A stretch of DNA of 64,000 bases from the NCBI RefSeq assembly GCF_001693255.1, contig NZ_CP016474.1, positions 2,870,661-2,934,660 of the forward strand. The letters are read 5' to 3'. Below, one piece after another: positions 12,926-60,815 of the stretch (position 1 is the first letter of the stretch; every line of letters begins with the position of its first letter). Made by a program: the position numbers and the translations under genes. This stretch comes from Picosynechococcus sp. PCC 7003 (lineage in GTDB: Bacteria; Cyanobacteriota; Cyanobacteriia; Cyanobacteriales; MRBY01). The notes under the pieces were generated by a model that saw nothing but the letters and a program-made list of their open reading frames with translations, was not told the DNA's origin and searched no databases.

Positions 12926-13007
12926 GCGGATGTGGTGGAATTGGTAGACACGCACGCTTGAGGGGCGTGTGGAGCGATCCTTGCGAGTTCGAGTCTCGCC
13001 ATCCGCA
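12926..13007 (+). tRNA. tRNA-Leu (anticodon GAG)
   Basis: The acceptor stem GCGGATG (12926-12932) pairs with CATCCGC (13000-13006), with A13007 as discriminator. The D-arm carries GGTGGAATTGGTAGAC, typical of tRNA-Leu. The anticodon stem CACGC/GCGTG encloses TTGAGGG with anticodon GAG at 12960-12962. A long variable arm and the T-loop GTTCGAGTC are present. The 3' CCA is not encoded. GAG reads CUC/CUU codons. Confidence 0.97.
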
Positions 13008-15540: not shown

Positions 15541-16752
15541 ATGAAAGTTCTTGATACATTCGCTGGAGCTGGTGGGTTTAGCCTTGGCTTTGAGATGGCA
15601 GGTTGTAAAATTGTTGGTGCAATTGAAACAGACGCATGGGCATGTGAGACATTCCAATTCAATCATCCAGATGCAACTGTAATAAAGGGGAATATTGAAG
15701 ATCTGTCGGATGCAAAATTATTAGCATTGTTTGAAGGCAATGAGCCGGACATTATCCTTGGTGGCCCACCCTGTCAGGGTTTTTCAATATGTAACAAAAA
15801 CAATGGTGATCCAAAAGACCCAAGAAATAGTTTATTTGAAGAATTTGTAAGATTAGGTAAACTGTTTAAGCCTAAAGTGATGGTCATGGAAAATGTCCCT
15901 AATTTAGTAAAAGCAAAAACAAAATCAAATGAATTAGTAATAGATATTATTAGGAGTGAACTGCATAACCTTGGATATTTTGTGTATTCAACAATACTAG
16001 AATCCGTTGATTATGGAGTCCCCCAAATCAGAAAAAGGCTATTTGTTATAGCCTCTACGCAAGAGCTTTGTAATCCGTTTCCAAAGCCAACCCATTCACC
16101 AAATCAGAGTGACTTATTTTCAGTGTCGTTAAAGAAAACGCCAACTCTGTGGGATGCAATATCAGACTTACCTGAAATTGAAGCAAGAGAAGGCGCTGAA
16201 GAAATGGAATATGTATCTAAGCCACTAAATGACTTTCAAAAGACTTTGCGTAACGGTAGCATGAAATTACACAACCATCTAGCAATGAAACACTCAAAGC
16301 GTATGGTGGAAAGATTTAGCTCAATGAAATGGGGACAGTCAGGATCAGATGTTCCTGACCATCTAAAACCATATAAGCGTAATTCAAACGGAGTTGTTAG
16401 TGATAGGATTTATGATCAAAATAATCGACGAATGCACCCAAATAAGCCTTGCCATACAATTCCTGCATCTTTTTATGCTAACTTTGTTCATCCGTATAAA
16501 AATAGGAATTTTACTGCTAGAGAAGGCGCTCGCATTCAAACCTTCCCTGATACATATGTATTTAAAGGGAAGCCAACCGTAGTTAGCCATAAGCTATTAG
16601 CAAGAGAAGGGCGTTTTGATGAAAAGTATTTATGCCAATACAATCAGATAGGTAACGCAGTGCCTCCTCTTTTGGCAAAAGCTGTTGCAGAGAATGTGTT
16701 GAACCAGTTTATTGAGGAAGATGAAGAATGTTTGTACATGGCAACAATTTAG
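15541..16752 (+). CDS. DNA (cytosine-5) methyltransferase of a type II R-M system
   Basis: 403 residues. Motif I is DTFAGAGGFSLGF (residues 5-17) for AdoMet binding. Motif IV is GPPCQGFS (about 77-84) with the catalytic cysteine, and motif VI is MENVPNL. Motif VIII is near RKRLFVIAS, and IQTFPDTY plus QIGNAVPPLLA give motifs IX-X. All ten blocks appear to be present, so it should be active. It modifies cytosine in an unknown target sequence. A -10-like TATAAT lies at 15500-15505. The stop overlaps the endonuclease start by 25 nt, and the strongly AT-rich codon use differs from the flanking genes. Confidence 0.95.
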   Translation: MKVLDTFAGAGGFSLGFEMAGCKIVGAIETDAWACETFQFNHPDATVIKGNIEDLSDAKLLALFEGNEPDIILGGPPCQGFSICNKNNGDPKDPRNSLFEEFVRLGKLFKPKVMVMENVPNLVKAKTKSNELVIDIIRSELHNLGYFVYSTILESVDYGVPQIRKRLFVIASTQELCNPFPKPTHSPNQSDLFSVSLKKTPTLWDAISDLPEIEAREGAEEMEYVSKPLNDFQKTLRNGSMKLHNHLAMKHSKRMVERFSSMKWGQSGSDVPDHLKPYKRNSNGVVSDRIYDQNNRRMHPNKPCHTIPASFYANFVHPYKNRNFTAREGARIQTFPDTYVFKGKPTVVSHKLLAREGRFDEKYLCQYNQIGNAVPPLLAKAVAENVLNQFIEEDEECLYMATI

Positions 16753-17597
16753 AACAAAAAGAAAATCATAGGACAAAATACCGTGACAAAGAATCAAAGT
16801 GCTATCTTGCAGAAATAAGGAGCCGATATAATCAATGGAAAGATAATAATGAAAATCTAGTCGGCCCTATAAAATTGCATGCGGATAATGATGATGATAT
16901 TCTCAAGCAAAGAGTAGAGTTGCTAAATAATTATAAGGAGTTCTTGGATCAGCAACATTATGCAGAAAAGTTCGACTCCCGTTCAAACTTACATTCTTCT
17001 GTTCTTGAAGAATTTTTGTATTATTTGTTTAGAGATTTAGTAAGCAGCATTTCAGAACATGCACTTATAGGAAAATCACATTCATTCAAAGATATATTTT
17101 TCAGATCATCGAATTATGCAGATATGCTGACAAAGCCAAATGCTCTAATTGAGATCAAAGATCATGATTTTTCGATTGGGTGCAGCATAACATCAAAAAT
17201 GCTATGCAAAGGTTCTGAAGAATCTGAAATTCATAAATGGGACATTCCAGCAGTTGCGATTGAATGCAAGACATATCTTGATAAGACCATGCTTCAAGAT
17301 GTTTCTACCGCTGCAGAACAATTAAAACAAAAGAATCCAAATGCGATGTATATGGTAGTAGCCGAATGGTTAAAGCTAACTGACTCAGTCAATTTAAAAA
17401 AATATAAAATAGATCAAATTTACGTATTACGAAAGCAGAAAAACACCGACCGCGAATTTCGATATCGCGAAGGTTACGTCAAAAACCCAATCTATGATGA
17501 CGTTGTAATTCACTTGTTCAATTCTGTTCGTAACTATCTCACATCAGACTGGGAAGGTGGTATTACACACGGTCTTGAGAAAGGCTACTTAATATAA
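16728..17597 (+). CDS. Type II restriction endonuclease, PD-(D/E)XK-like (possibly Bpu10I family)
   Basis: 289 residues. It overlaps the methyltransferase gene by 25 nt, the usual tandem arrangement for R-M pairs. A probable nuclease core is IEIKDHDFSIG (about residues 140-150) and, more convincingly, PAVAIECKTYLDK (about 172-184), which gives the E-x-K half of a PD-(D/E)XK site. The IECKTYLDKTM stretch reminds me of the Bpu10I/DdeI group, which would suggest a CTNAG-like target, but this is only recall. Codon use and AT content match the methyltransferase and not the chromosome. Confidence 0.75.
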   Translation: MFVHGNNLEQKENHRTKYRDKESKCYLAEIRSRYNQWKDNNENLVGPIKLHADNDDDILKQRVELLNNYKEFLDQQHYAEKFDSRSNLHSSVLEEFLYYLFRDLVSSISEHALIGKSHSFKDIFFRSSNYADMLTKPNALIEIKDHDFSIGCSITSKMLCKGSEESEIHKWDIPAVAIECKTYLDKTMLQDVSTAAEQLKQKNPNAMYMVVAEWLKLTDSVNLKKYKIDQIYVLRKQKNTDREFRYREGYVKNPIYDDVVIHLFNSVRNYLTSDWEGGITHGLEKGYLI

Positions 17598-50910: not shown

Positions 50911-51216
50911 ATGGTAGATATCGATTGGCAATTACTAAGTCTCACTTTTATTACCGTCTTTCTGGCAGAAATTGGTGACAAGAGTCAACTGGCGGCGATC
51001 GCCCTGGGGGGCAGTTCCAAATCACCCATTGCTGTATTTTTCGGCTCCGTGACGGCTTTGATTATCACCAGCCTCTTAGGTGTCATTGCCGGGGGAGCCT
51101 TTGCTGCTTTTATTCCCGCCCAGATTCTTAAGGGTTTAGCGGCCATCGGTTTTGCGACCCTCGCCGTGCGGTTACTGTGGCACCCGACCCCAGTGAATGA
51201 GAAACACGAGGATTAA
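50911..51216 (+). CDS. UPF0016/GDT1-family half transporter, second half (Hmx2-like)
   Basis: 101 residues, three membrane helices and the motif LAEIGDKSQLAAIAL (E-x-G-D-K-S). It complements the half encoded directly upstream. Neither half alone would make the two-motif exchange site, so they probably act as a heterodimer. It lies 60 nt before the Argonaute gene on the same strand, but nothing links the two functionally. Confidence 0.88.
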   Translation: MVDIDWQLLSLTFITVFLAEIGDKSQLAAIALGGSSKSPIAVFFGSVTALIITSLLGVIAGGAFAAFIPAQILKGLAAIGFATLAVRLLWHPTPVNEKHED

Positions 51217-51276
51217 ATTTCTACATAATCCATTAGAATATTTTATTAAATACAAATATGTAATTTTTGCATAATT

Positions 51277-53454
51277 ATGAATTTGACCTTATTTAATGAA
51301 ATCCTGCCTATTAATATTTCACAATTACCAAATCAATATTTTTATAAACTCTGTACAGCAGGAGATGTTGATTTAGATTCTTTAGGTCGTTCTATAAAAT
51401 ATCGCATTCAGAAATACTTTAGAGGTATTTGGGTTTGGAGCACCAATGATCAATTATTAATTTCAGATAAATTAATTGAATATCCTGAACTACAAAAATT
51501 CACTCAATATCTATGGACAGATCAAAGTAATCTTACATTTAATCAGCTAGAAGGTATTGAGATAGAGAATATACGATGTTGCACTCCTCAAGGAATTGCT
51601 GACTTTTGCTCGCAGGGATTAATTAAGAAATATGATCAACAAATCAAAAAAATTTTAGAGCAAAGTAAAACAGCACGTAGAGACTACCATATTAAACTTA
51701 TACACAAATTTGGTTCATGGGTAGTAAACAATCAGCCCTGTATATCTTTATCACTTAAACAAGAGATTGATTTTAATGGAACCCTACAAGACTATCTCAC
51801 AAAATTCCCCAACAGTAACATTATTGGACTCCATGTTTTAGATATAACAAAGCCATTTAATACGGCTCAAGAGGTCATTAAAATACTTGGAATATTAGGG
51901 GAGGGTAATCGACGACAACGATTGTTGACTTGGGTTAAAGAACCAACAATGAAAAAACTCGTTGAAGAAGCCCCTGATAGTGAATTAGTAGTCGAAATAG
52001 GGAACAAAAAAAAGAGTTATCATTACATTATAAGTGCTTTAAGAATAAGAGTTTTAAACCAAGATTATTTAAGGCTCGGAATATCCGAAAAACTACAAAT
52101 TGTTTCCGAAGAAAGACTAAAATATATTGAACCACTTTTCCGGATTCTTCAATCCGAAGGTTTTTTGGATAAAGTTTACACATCTCAGAGAAATCCAGAG
52201 CTTTTTCGTTCTTGTAGTGAAGAATGGGGTTATAATCCGCTCCTTAAATTTAAAAATAATGCTACTGTTGCTGCCGAATCAGTTCAAAGCACAGTTCAAG
52301 TTGTTCAAAAACATGGTGAATTCAGAAAAGCAGATAAATCTGAAATTAGAATTGCTATTCTAAATACACTTAAAAGTGAAAACTCTACAAAGCTTATCGA
52401 GATATTTAGAAATAATTTCAAAAGATCCTTTAATCAAAATCTAGAAGGCATTGGCAATCAACTAAAGTATAAATTAAAATTAGTAGGCCAGCCTATTGCC
52501 CTTGATTTGTCAAAAAACTCTCTCTCTTTATTAGACTCTAAAATAGGAGAGTTGTCGAAGAAGAAACCGGATATTGTTATCTGTGTTATTCCGAATTTCT
52601 TGTCTAAAGGTGAAGATGGAAGGACTCTTTATGATGATCTAAAACAAACTTTTCTAAAGTACAATCTACAATCCCAAATGTTACAAGAGAAAACATTGAC
52701 AACTTCTTTTGCGACTAAGAACATTGTTTTAGGAGTCTTGGCAAAAATAGGAAGTGTTCCTTACATATTACAAGAACCACTTACTTACACAGATTTTGTG
52801 GTAGGCCTTGATGTTTCACGCCGTCGGAAGAAAAATCTTCAAGGAACTAATAGTGTTGCTGCCATGACTCGTATTTATTCCAATCAAGGTGAATTAGTTC
52901 ACTACAGTATTAGAGATGCTACTATCGACGGTGAAATCATACCAAAAAGAATGTTGTATGATTTGTTTCCTCTTCACGAGTATCAAGGAAAGCGTGTAGT
53001 AATTCATCGAGATGGAAATTTCCCAGAAGAAGAAAGACAAGCACTAGAAGAAATCGCAGAAAAAATAGATGCCAAGTTTTATTTTGTTTCAATAATCAAA
53101 AGTGGCAATCCTAGAATATACGGTAGAACTAAAAATGAAGAAGGAATAGGAAGCTATCGCAAAGCCCCAAAAGGTTCAATTTTTTTGTTGTCTGAGACAG
53201 AAGCATTATTAATTAGCTCTGATTTTCCAGACCGTTTTCGAGCAACTCCACAACCTCTGCGAATCAAAACCTTTGGGAATTTTCCATTGCAGTCAGCAGT
53301 TCACTCCGTCTTATCTCTAACATACCTACACTATGGATCAGAAAGACCTCCACGGTTACCTGTTTCTACTTACTATGCTGATTCAATTTCAACAATGGTA
53401 TCCAAAGGCATTAAACCAAAGGATGTAGATGGAAATATACCTTTCTGGTTATAG
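51277..53454 (+). CDS. Prokaryotic Argonaute, long type, with complete catalytic tetrad
   Basis: 725 residues. The PIWI domain (about 505-725) has D512 (GLDVS), E553 (DGEIIP, the glutamate finger), D579 (IHRDG) and D702 (YYADS), a DEDD tetrad. D512-D579 and D579-D702 distances are close to those of Thermus Argonaute. The MID domain has Y452, K456, Q467 and K490, matching the guide 5'-phosphate residues by spacing, and the C-terminus ends in a hydrophobic PFWL. N, L1, PAZ-like and L2 regions fill residues 1-420. An active guide-directed nuclease is expected. The gene is AT-rich, HIP1-free and without an obvious partner gene. Confidence 0.93.
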   Translation: MNLTLFNEILPINISQLPNQYFYKLCTAGDVDLDSLGRSIKYRIQKYFRGIWVWSTNDQLLISDKLIEYPELQKFTQYLWTDQSNLTFNQLEGIEIENIRCCTPQGIADFCSQGLIKKYDQQIKKILEQSKTARRDYHIKLIHKFGSWVVNNQPCISLSLKQEIDFNGTLQDYLTKFPNSNIIGLHVLDITKPFNTAQEVIKILGILGEGNRRQRLLTWVKEPTMKKLVEEAPDSELVVEIGNKKKSYHYIISALRIRVLNQDYLRLGISEKLQIVSEERLKYIEPLFRILQSEGFLDKVYTSQRNPELFRSCSEEWGYNPLLKFKNNATVAAESVQSTVQVVQKHGEFRKADKSEIRIAILNTLKSENSTKLIEIFRNNFKRSFNQNLEGIGNQLKYKLKLVGQPIALDLSKNSLSLLDSKIGELSKKKPDIVICVIPNFLSKGEDGRTLYDDLKQTFLKYNLQSQMLQEKTLTTSFATKNIVLGVLAKIGSVPYILQEPLTYTDFVVGLDVSRRRKKNLQGTNSVAAMTRIYSNQGELVHYSIRDATIDGEIIPKRMLYDLFPLHEYQGKRVVIHRDGNFPEEERQALEEIAEKIDAKFYFVSIIKSGNPRIYGRTKNEEGIGSYRKAPKGSIFLLSETEALLISSDFPDRFRATPQPLRIKTFGNFPLQSAVHSVLSLTYLHYGSERPPRLPVSTYYADSISTMVSKGIKPKDVDGNIPFWL

Positions 53455-53540
53455 AACAAGAATATTATTTTTTGTTATTTTGCTCTTGAGATCTTTTACA
53501 CTAAAAATAGCTTCTTAGTTTTTTCATTAAATTTTTGTTT

Positions 53541-54752
53541 ATGGTCGCTACCGTTAGCCTGGACGCAATTCTCCACAAACACCGGATTCGTCCCACGATC
53601 CAAGCGCTCCAATCAGAAATTGTCCAGTGGCGTCGCCAGATCCACCAGAAACCGGAATTAGCGTTTCGGGAAAATCTGACCGCAGAATTTATTGCTCACA
53701 AGCTCACGGCATGGGGCATCCCCCACCAAACTGGCATTGCTGAAACTGGCATTGTCGCCCTCATCGAAGGTCATCAAAAGGGTAAAGTCCTGGGCATTCG
53801 CGCCGATATGGATGCCCTACCAATCCAAGAGGAAAATGAGGTGGATTACCGCTCCCAACATCCGGGAGTGATGCACGCCTGCGGTCACGATGGCCATGTG
53901 GCGATCGCCTTGGGGACAGCGAAATATCTCCAGGAAAACCGCGACAGTTTCCGGGGAGCCGTGAAAATTATTTTTCAACCTGCTGAGGAAAGTCCCGGCG
54001 GCGCAAAACCGATGATCCAGGCGGGTGTCCTCCATAACCCTGACGTAGATGCGATCATTGGCCTGCACCTGTGGAATAATCTCCCCCTCGGCACCGTGGG
54101 GGTACGGCCTGGGGCGTTAATGGCGGCGGTCGAAAGCTTTGATTTGCGTGTACAAGGCAAAGGAGGCCACGGCGCTCTACCCCACCAAACCGTCGATGCA
54201 ATCGTGGTCGCGGCGCAAATTGTCGGCGCACTGCAAACCCTTGTATCCCGGATCGTGAATCCCCTCGATGCGGCGGTGGTTACGGTGGGCGAATTTAAAG
54301 CAGGTCACGCGATGAACGTGATCGCCGACTATGCGGACCTCAAAGGCACTATCCGCTACTTCAACCCCCAACTGGAAAAAACCATTGGCGATCGCCTTGA
54401 AACCATCGTTAACGGCATTTGCCAGAGCTATGGGGCCAGCTACAAATTGGATCATGTGCATCTTTATCCACCGACGATCAACGATCCCACCATGGCCGAG
54501 TTGGTGCGTTCCGTTGCCGAAGCTACCATTGAAACGCCCCTAGGGGTCATGCCCGAATGCCAAACCATGGGTAGCGAAGATATGTCCTTTTTCCTGCGGG
54601 AAGTGCCCGGTTGTTACTTTTTTCTCGGTTCGGCGAATCCGTATTTTGATCTGGCTTATCCCCACCACCATCCCCGCTTTAACTTTGATGAAACAGCCTT
54701 AGGGATGGGGGTCGAAATGTTTGTCCGTTGTGTCGAAAAATTTTTAGCTTAA
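53541..54752 (+). CDS. M20-family amidohydrolase (IAA-amino acid hydrolase/hippurate hydrolase-like)
   Basis: 403 residues from the ATG at 53541. Metal ligands are visible in HACGHDGHVAIALG (Cys and His), in FQPAEESPGGAKPMI (Glu-Glu) and in GLHLWNNLP, with a late His in AYPHHHPRF. The enzyme hydrolyses N-acyl amino acids; the exact substrate is not given by sequence. The family includes plant auxin-conjugate hydrolases. It is followed 4 nt later by a cupin gene, so they form a unit. The spacer before it (86 nt) is AT-rich and belongs to the Argonaute side. Confidence 0.9.
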   Translation: MVATVSLDAILHKHRIRPTIQALQSEIVQWRRQIHQKPELAFRENLTAEFIAHKLTAWGIPHQTGIAETGIVALIEGHQKGKVLGIRADMDALPIQEENEVDYRSQHPGVMHACGHDGHVAIALGTAKYLQENRDSFRGAVKIIFQPAEESPGGAKPMIQAGVLHNPDVDAIIGLHLWNNLPLGTVGVRPGALMAAVESFDLRVQGKGGHGALPHQTVDAIVVAAQIVGALQTLVSRIVNPLDAAVVTVGEFKAGHAMNVIADYADLKGTIRYFNPQLEKTIGDRLETIVNGICQSYGASYKLDHVHLYPPTINDPTMAELVRSVAEATIETPLGVMPECQTMGSEDMSFFLREVPGCYFFLGSANPYFDLAYPHHHPRFNFDETALGMGVEMFVRCVEKFLA

Positions 54753-59585: not shown

Positions 59586-60815
59586 CAGGGGCTACGCATC
59601 TAAAAAAAGGTGTAGAAAGGAGGAAAGAGGAAAAATGTGAAAAGAATGGCATCCCTATTTAACAACGAAGTTCTCAAAGCCAGTATTGACAAGCACTTTG
59701 GAGAAATAGAAGACCCAAGAGTAGAACGTACACGGGCACACTACTTAGTCGATATCATCGTTATCGCTCTTTTTGCCACTATATCAGGAGCCGATAGTTG
59801 GGTAGGAATCGAAACCTATGGAAATTCCAAAGAAGAATGGCTCAGGCAATTTCTCGAGTTGCCCAACGGCATCCCCTCCCATAATACTTGTGCCAGGGTA
59901 TTTGCCAGATTAGACTCAGAACAATTAGAAGCAGAATTTCGCAACTGGGTAGGGACAATAGCAGGAAAGCTCTCAGCTCAGGTCATTGCCATAGATGGAA
60001 AAGCTTCACGAGGCTCCTACGATAGGGAAAAAGGCATTAAAGACCTACAACTGGTCAGTGCTTGGGCAACGTCATCTCGTCTAGTGTTAGGACAAGAGGC
60101 TGTGGAAACAAAATCCAATGAAATTACAGCCATTCCTCAACTACTCGCACAACTAGAGCTCAAAGGATGTATTGTGACCATCGATGCCATGGGCACTCAA
60201 AAGAAAATCGCCCAACAGATTTGTCAAGCTAAAGCAGACTATATTCTGGCTCTCAAGGGCAACCAGGGTAGATTGTTTAAAGCAGTAAAAACCTGGTTTG
60301 AAAAGCAAAGAGAATCTGCCAAAGAATGGCGAGAAACGGGATGGCATCAGACGGAGAAGGGACATCAGCGTCTAGAAACCAGAACAATCTGGCAAATTCC
60401 AGCATCTCATGTTTTGCCTCAAGAGTTACGGGAGCCTTGGCAGCAACTCCGTACCATCGTCATTGTGGAAGGAACTCGTCAACTTTGGCATAAGACTACT
60501 CACGAAATCCGCTTCTTTATCAGTTCTATAGAAGCGACAAATCAGGAGTTTGCCAGTCATATTCGCAATCACTGGGGAATTGAAAATCAGCTTCATTGGT
60601 GTCTTGACGTGGTCTTTGGAGAAGATAATTCTCGAATTCGCCAAGGTCATTCGGCTCGTAATATGAGCCTAATGAGGCGGTTCACGTTGAATCTGCTTCG
60701 TCAGGAGACTTCTCAAACCAGCCTCACCATGAAGCGTTACAAGGCTGCCATGGACAATGGTTTTTTACTTAAAATCCTTGCTGACTCTGGTTTTATTTTA
60801 GATGCGTAGCCCCTG
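59586..60815 (+). mobile_element. ISAs1-family insertion sequence, intact
   Basis: The 1230-bp element has 20-bp perfect terminal inverted repeats (59586-59605 and 60796-60815, beginning CAGGGGCTACGC). It is flanked by a 10-bp direct repeat GGGGCATCAC at 59576-59585 and 60816-60825. One transposase gene fills it, and its stop lies inside the right repeat. There is no HIP1. Identical ends and a perfect target duplication indicate recent insertion. Confidence 0.95.
59637..60809 (+). CDS. ISAs1-family transposase (DDE)
   Basis: 390 residues with a GTG start at 59637 after AGGAAAGAGG; an ATG at 59646 is possible. An N-terminal DDE_Tnp_1-associated region (FGEIEDPRVERTRAHYLVDIIVIALFATISGADSW) is followed by the catalytic part. 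DDE residues are likely D in AIDGKASRGS, D in VTIDAMGTQ, and E in HWGIENQLHWCLDVVFGED. The C-terminal NHWGIENQLHWCLDV and RHS-type LNLLR are typical of ISAs1/H-repeat transposases. The frame is intact. The stop lies in the right inverted repeat. Confidence 0.95.
   Translation: MKRMASLFNNEVLKASIDKHFGEIEDPRVERTRAHYLVDIIVIALFATISGADSWVGIETYGNSKEEWLRQFLELPNGIPSHNTCARVFARLDSEQLEAEFRNWVGTIAGKLSAQVIAIDGKASRGSYDREKGIKDLQLVSAWATSSRLVLGQEAVETKSNEITAIPQLLAQLELKGCIVTIDAMGTQKKIAQQICQAKADYILALKGNQGRLFKAVKTWFEKQRESAKEWRETGWHQTEKGHQRLETRTIWQIPASHVLPQELREPWQQLRTIVIVEGTRQLWHKTTHEIRFFISSIEATNQEFASHIRNHWGIENQLHWCLDVVFGEDNSRIRQGHSARNMSLMRRFTLNLLRQETSQTSLTMKRYKAAMDNGFLLKILADSGFILDA

Follow-up and report, generated by a model that had tools for sequence, protein, structure and literature searches.

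The Argonaute gene and its active-site residues

We analyzed a 64,000-nucleotide stretch of the Picosynechococcus sp. PCC 7003 genome (contig NZ_CP016474.1, positions 2,870,661 to 2,934,660; hereafter the window), in which an intact open reading frame (ORF) encodes a long-A prokaryotic Argonaute (pAgo) of 725 residues with the domain order N-PAZ-MID-PIWI (Table 1). A first-pass annotation, made from the nucleotide letters and a list of ORFs, had pointed out this gene together with four putative catalytic residues in the PIWI domain and four residues in the MID domain. The ORF translation and our alignments confirmed its coordinates and residue numbers. In an alignment of 31 rows, D512, E553, D579 and D702, as well as Y452, K456, Q467 and K490, occupy the columns expected for an Argonaute. 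The first aspartate and the glutamate are kept in all 31 rows, the third residue in 30 and the fourth in 28, the remaining three rows carrying G, E and H. Of the MID residues K456 varies most, another letter standing there in 15 of the 31 rows. The spacings that had been likened to those of Thermus Argonaute were also correct: the MID residues lie 4, 11 and 23 positions apart in the window protein and 4, 11 and 24 in the Thermus brockianus Argonaute, and the first and third catalytic residues are separated by 67 and 68 positions, respectively. The Thermus brockianus residues in the same columns are R422/K426/Q437/K461 and D482/E516/D550/D664; its MID set begins with R where that of the window protein begins with Y.

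The combination of the DEDD tetrad and the YKQK pocket was found in the window protein and the next 11 rows of alignment A2 (L034-L044), and again in 11 of 11 further rows of the same type (L002-L004, L151-L158), which we call window-type. With its four domains, a DEDX tetrad and the YKQK motif, the window protein is a long-A pAgo. The long-B and short classes were ruled out by the complete tetrad and the full length; according to the available part of PMC6299218, the tetrad occurs in 79% of long-A pAgos and in no long-B or short ones, and the short forms lack PAZ. General background on pAgos is given, in the parts available, in PMC10992608, PMC11817465 and PMC10936165. The PADLOC pAgo model PDLC02396 matched residues 4-725 at 1103 bits (profile positions 2-683 of 683) and was the best PADLOC match for all eight window-type relatives scanned; the single protein scanned from the Cas4-linked type described below matched PDLC02380 best. 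Pfam called Piwi alone, at residues 447-712, and neither NCBIfam nor PHROGs gave a match.

Table 1 Features at the Argonaute locus (window coordinates)
Feature	Position	Strand	Description or basis
Long-A prokaryotic Argonaute gene	51277..53454	+	725 aa, N-PAZ-MID-PIWI; ORF intact
MID pocket for the guide 5' end, Y452...K490 (YKQK)	52630..52746	+	alignment
Catalytic D512 codon	52810..52812	+	alignments A1, A2
Catalytic E553 codon (glutamate finger)	52933..52935	+	alignments A1, A2
Catalytic D579 codon	53011..53013	+	alignments A1, A2
Catalytic D702 codon	53380..53382	+	alignments A1, A2
GDT1 divalent-cation antiporter, second copy (left neighbor)	50911..51216	+	PF01169
M20-family peptidase/amidohydrolase (right neighbor)	53535..54752	+	PF01546
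Segment lacking DNA homology to the G002 site that has no Argonaute	51194..53490 (edges approximate)		DNA comparison

An AlphaFold model built on the 31-row alignment had a mean pLDDT (predicted local distance difference test) of 83.9 and a pTM (predicted template modeling score) of 0.85, with low-confidence blocks at residues of about 371-400, 441-450, 511-530 and 691 onward. The solved structures that matched it best by Z score were CtAgo (26.0), Pseudooceanicola Ago (23.8), CbAgo (23.3), silkworm Siwi (22.8) and TtAgo (22.5). Structural alignments with solved full-length Argonautes run from residues 1-3 to about 702, with 632 residues aligned for CtAgo, 641 for CbAgo and 566 for the best TtAgo row. 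The overall fold predicted by the model is that of a full-length Argonaute.

A single-gene insertion between GDT1 and M20 genes

The gene was acquired as a single-gene insert between two ordinary genes. Acquisition had already been proposed in the first-pass annotation, and it is upheld by comparison within a genus set of six genomes, namely that of PCC 7003 itself (G000) and five congeners (G001-G005). In G002 and G003 the locus is empty and the GDT1 and M20 genes adjoin each other; the G002 M20 product is 99% identical to that of the window. DNA homology between the window and G002 stops at ~51193 and resumes at ~53490 (~53541 in a stricter search). Because no GDT1 gene was found in the stretches around their M20 genes, G001, G004 and G005 offer no test of the insertion site. 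Just short imperfect repeats were seen at the insert, none of which pairs its two edges in the manner of a target duplication, and the window's sole tRNA is at 12926. The nearest transposase gene identified (59637-60809, + strand) is ~6 kb downstream of the Argonaute gene; it encodes a DDE transposase with a DDE_Tnp_1-associated domain.

An intact Argonaute gene is present in two of the six genus genomes, G000 and G005. No match was obtained at E 0.001 in G001, G002 or G003, and G004 matched just the 27 C-terminal residues (L117:7579-7659), at the DNA level too, amid ORFs that resemble transposases by eye; this scrap looks like what is left of a decayed gene. Since three of the five congeners have no match and a fourth has a mere scrap, the Argonaute is dispensable in the genus. 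The G005 protein is 54% identical overall to the window protein; its gene is on a contig other than that of M20 and adjoins an ORF with counterparts in all six genomes, and the G004 scrap lies ~177 kb from the counterpart of that ORF. The two intact copies and the scrap therefore sit at three separate places. Beyond the genus, searches with the Argonaute gave no match in viral contigs, one distant partial match in phages and 16 plasmid records, every one below 60% identity. A literature search for Argonaute together with Picosynechococcus found no paper.

The low base composition that had been remarked on was borne out: at 33.7% G+C the Argonaute gene is the lowest of the 56 window ORFs of at least 100 amino acids (mean 51.1%, standard deviation 4.5). 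The same cannot be said of the absence of HIP1. It is true that no GCGATCGC occurs between 51002 and 53901, a distance of 2906 bases that no other gap in the window exceeds. The next longest, however, measure 2877 and 2657 bases, and a Poisson estimate gives 1.24 gaps of at least 2906 bases expected in the window. With similar gaps present and one or so expected, the HIP1-free remark carries no weight alone, and we dropped it as a sign of foreign origin. The Argonaute gene was at least 5 points more AT-rich than its flanks in eight of 12 loci examined in other hosts and not in the other four (L034-L045), and in G045 (L003) it is about equal to its surroundings. Such AT-richness, common in other hosts, fits repeated transfer but may also be a trait of the family. 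A second AT-rich island was seen at window positions 15541-17597 (+ strand; 37.9% and 34.4% G+C), within the second-longest HIP1 gap. There, a gene for a C5 DNA methyltransferase accompanies one for a Bpu10I-like restriction endonuclease, and the two make up another defence system.

Phylogenetic position of the window protein

A MID-PIWI tree was built from 51 of 54 rows, leaving out L101 (frame-broken) and L046 and L048 (changed tetrads). The window protein lies within a starred branch of six rows (support 100/99) together with the proteins of G005 (L002), G045 (L003), Thiospirillum (Pseudomonadota), Poribacteria and Anaerolineae (Chloroflexota), and it and the G005 protein are mutually nearest (100/100). 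Two other groups form separate starred branches, each supported at 100/100: nine rows of the type of Synechococcus elongatus Argonaute (SeAgo) and TtAgo, consisting of the Thermus brockianus protein and eight cyanobacterial ones (no row carries the name of SeAgo itself), and 14 Cas4-linked rows, which include CtAgo. All 22 window-type rows, with a few unlabelled rows among them, share one side of a 78/80 branch, against these two groups. In this tree the window protein belongs to a third, YK-type branch spread across Chloroflexota, Poribacteria, Pseudomonadota and cyanobacteria. Thus the first-pass classification as a catalytically complete long-A pAgo stood, whereas the near kinship to the Synechococcus elongatus and Thermus Argonautes that it had also drawn was dropped, as these form a separate clade and three such proteins share just 20-29% MID-PIWI identity with the window protein.

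This picture differs from that in the available part of PMC10653904, which reports 160 cyanobacterial pAgo homologues, 20 of them with PAZ and DEDX, places all predicted active ones in one cluster branching with Thermus, and lists PCC 7002 among the strains with a predicted active pAgo; here the DEDD proteins fall into three separate groups. Among 388 evenly drawn cyanobacterial genomes, the window protein matched 33 at E 1e-40 or better, which we read by score and identity as 11 window-type and 22 Cas4-linked. The Thermus protein matched 29 of the 388 genomes at 1e-20, and G000 was not one of the 29. A Pfam Piwi search found one gene in G000; among its 14 controls it was positive in Methanocaldococcus alone and missed Synechococcus elongatus, and so this search alone could miss the SeAgo type. 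We also observed that the MID-PIWI regions of L043 (Chloroflexota, Roseilinea) and L157 (a cyanobacterium) lie very close together in the tree, on branches of 0.02 and 0.05, reflecting either a recent transfer across phyla or a misassigned contig.

Search for a partner nuclease

We searched with the nuclease next to L050 (PADLOC Aga_Cas4-like_Nuc) as query. Of the 62 cyanobacterial loci within L050-L113, 60 carry a Cas4-like gene, L109 by a 126-residue piece alone; the two misses were L074, which is cut just upstream, and L103. It was also present in each of the four linked-type stretches of greater length (L123-L126) and at all 12 of the loci L005-L015 and L019. These sets overlap, some genomes being the same organisms, and do not include L020 and L021. 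The gene was not found in any of the 18 loci L034-L049, L101 and L107, several of which are short, nor at those of the three closest relatives with long flanks (L114, L121, L122), nor in the window, nor at L016-L018, which are partial or distant matches that belong to neither group. A second locus set, with flanks of ~1.5 kb or less, gave the same division: the gene accompanied 17 of 17 linked-type Argonautes (L160-L176), none of nine window-type ones (L151-L159) and none of eight of the SeAgo/TtAgo type (L177-L184). The missing gene, together with the place of the window protein outside the CtAgo clade, rules out the Cas4-linked cyanobacterial type.

Other neighbors did not supply a general partner either. 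An all-against-all comparison of neighboring ORFs at 19 window-type and nearby loci yielded a loose group of proteins, a single weak pair and a small protein shared by two related hosts, both filamentous cyanobacteria, and a conserved partner was rejected. This small protein, of 139 or 138 amino acids (79% identical), is encoded just downstream of the Argonaute gene at L038:10382-10801 and L040:10412-10828. It was seen again in L152 and L155 alone, where the Argonaute rows are the same as in the L038 and L040 hosts; by eye it looks PIN-like. Ten neighbor proteins, chosen by closeness to Argonaute, were scanned for families. They included a DUF499 protein (L034), a D12 methyltransferase (L043) and the Cas4-like nuclease of the linked-type locus L050, and the other seven were metabolic, membrane or unassigned proteins, two with weak PADLOC matches (19-22 bits). 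A partner of a cyanobacterial pAgo has reportedly been named ACE1.

The first-pass remark that no partner nuclease adjoins the gene therefore agrees with our searches, since none stands beside it in the window and G000 has no homologue of the Cas4-like partner at E 0.1. A partner could still be encoded elsewhere, for example a conserved chromosomal PD-(D/E)XK protein, RecJ or UvrD, which we consider unlikely. G000 has four PDDEXK_1 matches, one of which is a chromosomal frame of 268 amino acids (G000:C1:1625859-1626521) with counterparts in congeners, and an RSF1010 plasmid benefited in S. elongatus when cas4, uvrD or recJcy was lost, just as it did without ago, according to the available part of PMC10653904. 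However, no PADLOC model matched the 268-residue protein, and for its G001 counterpart there was a weak match (30 bits) to a Cas4-like model associated with Argonautes; PDDEXK_1 matches occur in all six genus genomes, with or without Argonaute. In addition, Pfam Cas4 was matched at E 0.01 in five of the six genus genomes, G000 being the exception.

Proposed function and alternative explanations

Proteins of this kind are already known among bacterial immune nucleases, and Picosynechococcus-like strains are naturally competent. We consider that the window gene, a catalytically complete YK-type long-A pAgo acquired singly and lacking a Cas4-like partner, probably encodes a DNA-guided DNA nuclease that stands alone and restricts plasmids or other incoming DNA. 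We infer that it most probably loads short 5'-phosphorylated DNA guides and uses its DEDD center to cut complementary DNA, thereby limiting plasmids, phage or transforming DNA without a dedicated partner nuclease. The accessible text of PMC10269773 states that most studied pAgos use DNA guides and describes an enrichment for plasmid sequence in E. coli, and that of PMC10653904 shows SeAgo restricting both transformation and RSF1010 plasmids.

Several points weigh against this proposal. D512 and D702 fall inside low-confidence blocks of the model, and the eukaryotic Argonaute Siwi fits the model about equally well (Z 22.8); because eukaryotic Argonautes match similarly, the subtype is not fixed by the fold and rests on sequence. 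The support of 78/80 for the branch that holds all window-type rows is only moderate, and no match to a sigma-70-like promoter was found within 60 bases upstream of the gene. Finally, other long-A pAgos help to terminate replication, in addition to defence or in its place.

An alternative view is that chromosome maintenance is the main role, in which the protein would load small DNAs derived from the terminus and help to complete replication, as for TtAgo and for SeAgo and LrAgo in E. coli. As far as the available part of PMC10269773 goes, SeAgo and LrAgo bind small DNAs of the terminus region in E. coli, most of their guides being chromosomal in origin, and assist cell division under a gyrase inhibitor. 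We nevertheless think such a main role unlikely for the window protein: three of the five congeners yielded no match to the gene and a fourth a scrap alone, and its patchy spread across phyla resembles that of a defence gene.

The gene might instead be ancestral in the genus and lost by other members, its low G+C being a family trait and not a sign of transfer. The copy in G005, whose protein is mutually nearest to that of the window, the C-terminal scrap in G004 and the frequent AT-richness of relatives (eight of 12 loci) are consistent with this, but the two copies and the scrap stand at three different places and the GDT1-M20 junctions of G002 and G003 bear no detected trace of the gene, and we regard ancestry in the genus as quite improbable. 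RNA guides or RNA targets in place of DNA seem very improbable, as CpAgo, likewise YKQK, was solved with guide DNA and a single-stranded DNA target and most studied pAgos use DNA guides (PMC10269773, available part).

Going beyond a stand-alone nuclease in one strain, the whole branch could be a self-sufficient one-gene immune module that moves alone across phyla, turns over fast at scattered sites in the genus and keeps small multicopy plasmids and transforming DNA in check, leaving carriers with fewer small plasmids; this is speculative and, taken as a whole, doubtful. Among extra contigs, the carrier G000 has those of 34.7 kb and 253 kb alone, and the Argonaute-free G002 also has contigs of 4.7 kb and 7.4 kb, which is a hint of such policing; Argonaute-free G001 has none below 17 kb, a counter-hint. 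A contrast of three genomes, one of them contrary, from assemblies that may miss small plasmids, is an idea and not evidence. G000 and G002 are close relatives that form a natural pair with and without the gene, and this pair, in a branch without the Cas4-like partner gene, makes it directly testable whether a lone long-A pAgo suffices for interference.

Comparison with known Argonautes

CtAgo of Chroococcidiopsis thermalis (PDB 9iad), the best structural match (Z 26.0 over 632 residues, 26% identity), has the same DEDD tetrad. Its type differs from the window protein in the second MID residue (K in the window protein and in one of the 14 Cas4-linked rows; Y, S or T in the other 13) and in the Cas4-like gene that adjoins 60 of its 62 cyanobacterial loci and is missing here. 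The SeAgo/TtAgo type shares the DEDD tetrad and the MID spacing; its MID set, however, begins with K or R and not with Y.

The G005 protein (L002), 68% identical to the window protein in MID-PIWI, sits at a different chromosomal place. It may be LrAgo of Limnothrix rosea, which would then be the closest characterized relative of the window protein: its first catalytic residue, D516, has the same number as that of LrAgo, and a second residue number of LrAgo does not agree. Between the G005 and Thermus brockianus proteins the MID-PIWI identity is 25.5%, close to the 25.8% between LrAgo and TtAgo given in the available part of PMC10269773.

AaAgo of Aquifex aeolicus (PDB 1yvu) falls outside both the window-type and the Cas4-linked rows, in a group with a protein from Aquificales. 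Like the window protein it carries YKQK and DEDD, with 32% MID-PIWI identity between the two, and active PAZ-bearing pAgos such as AaAgo are described in the accessible part of PMC2743648 as not usually lying next to other nuclease genes.
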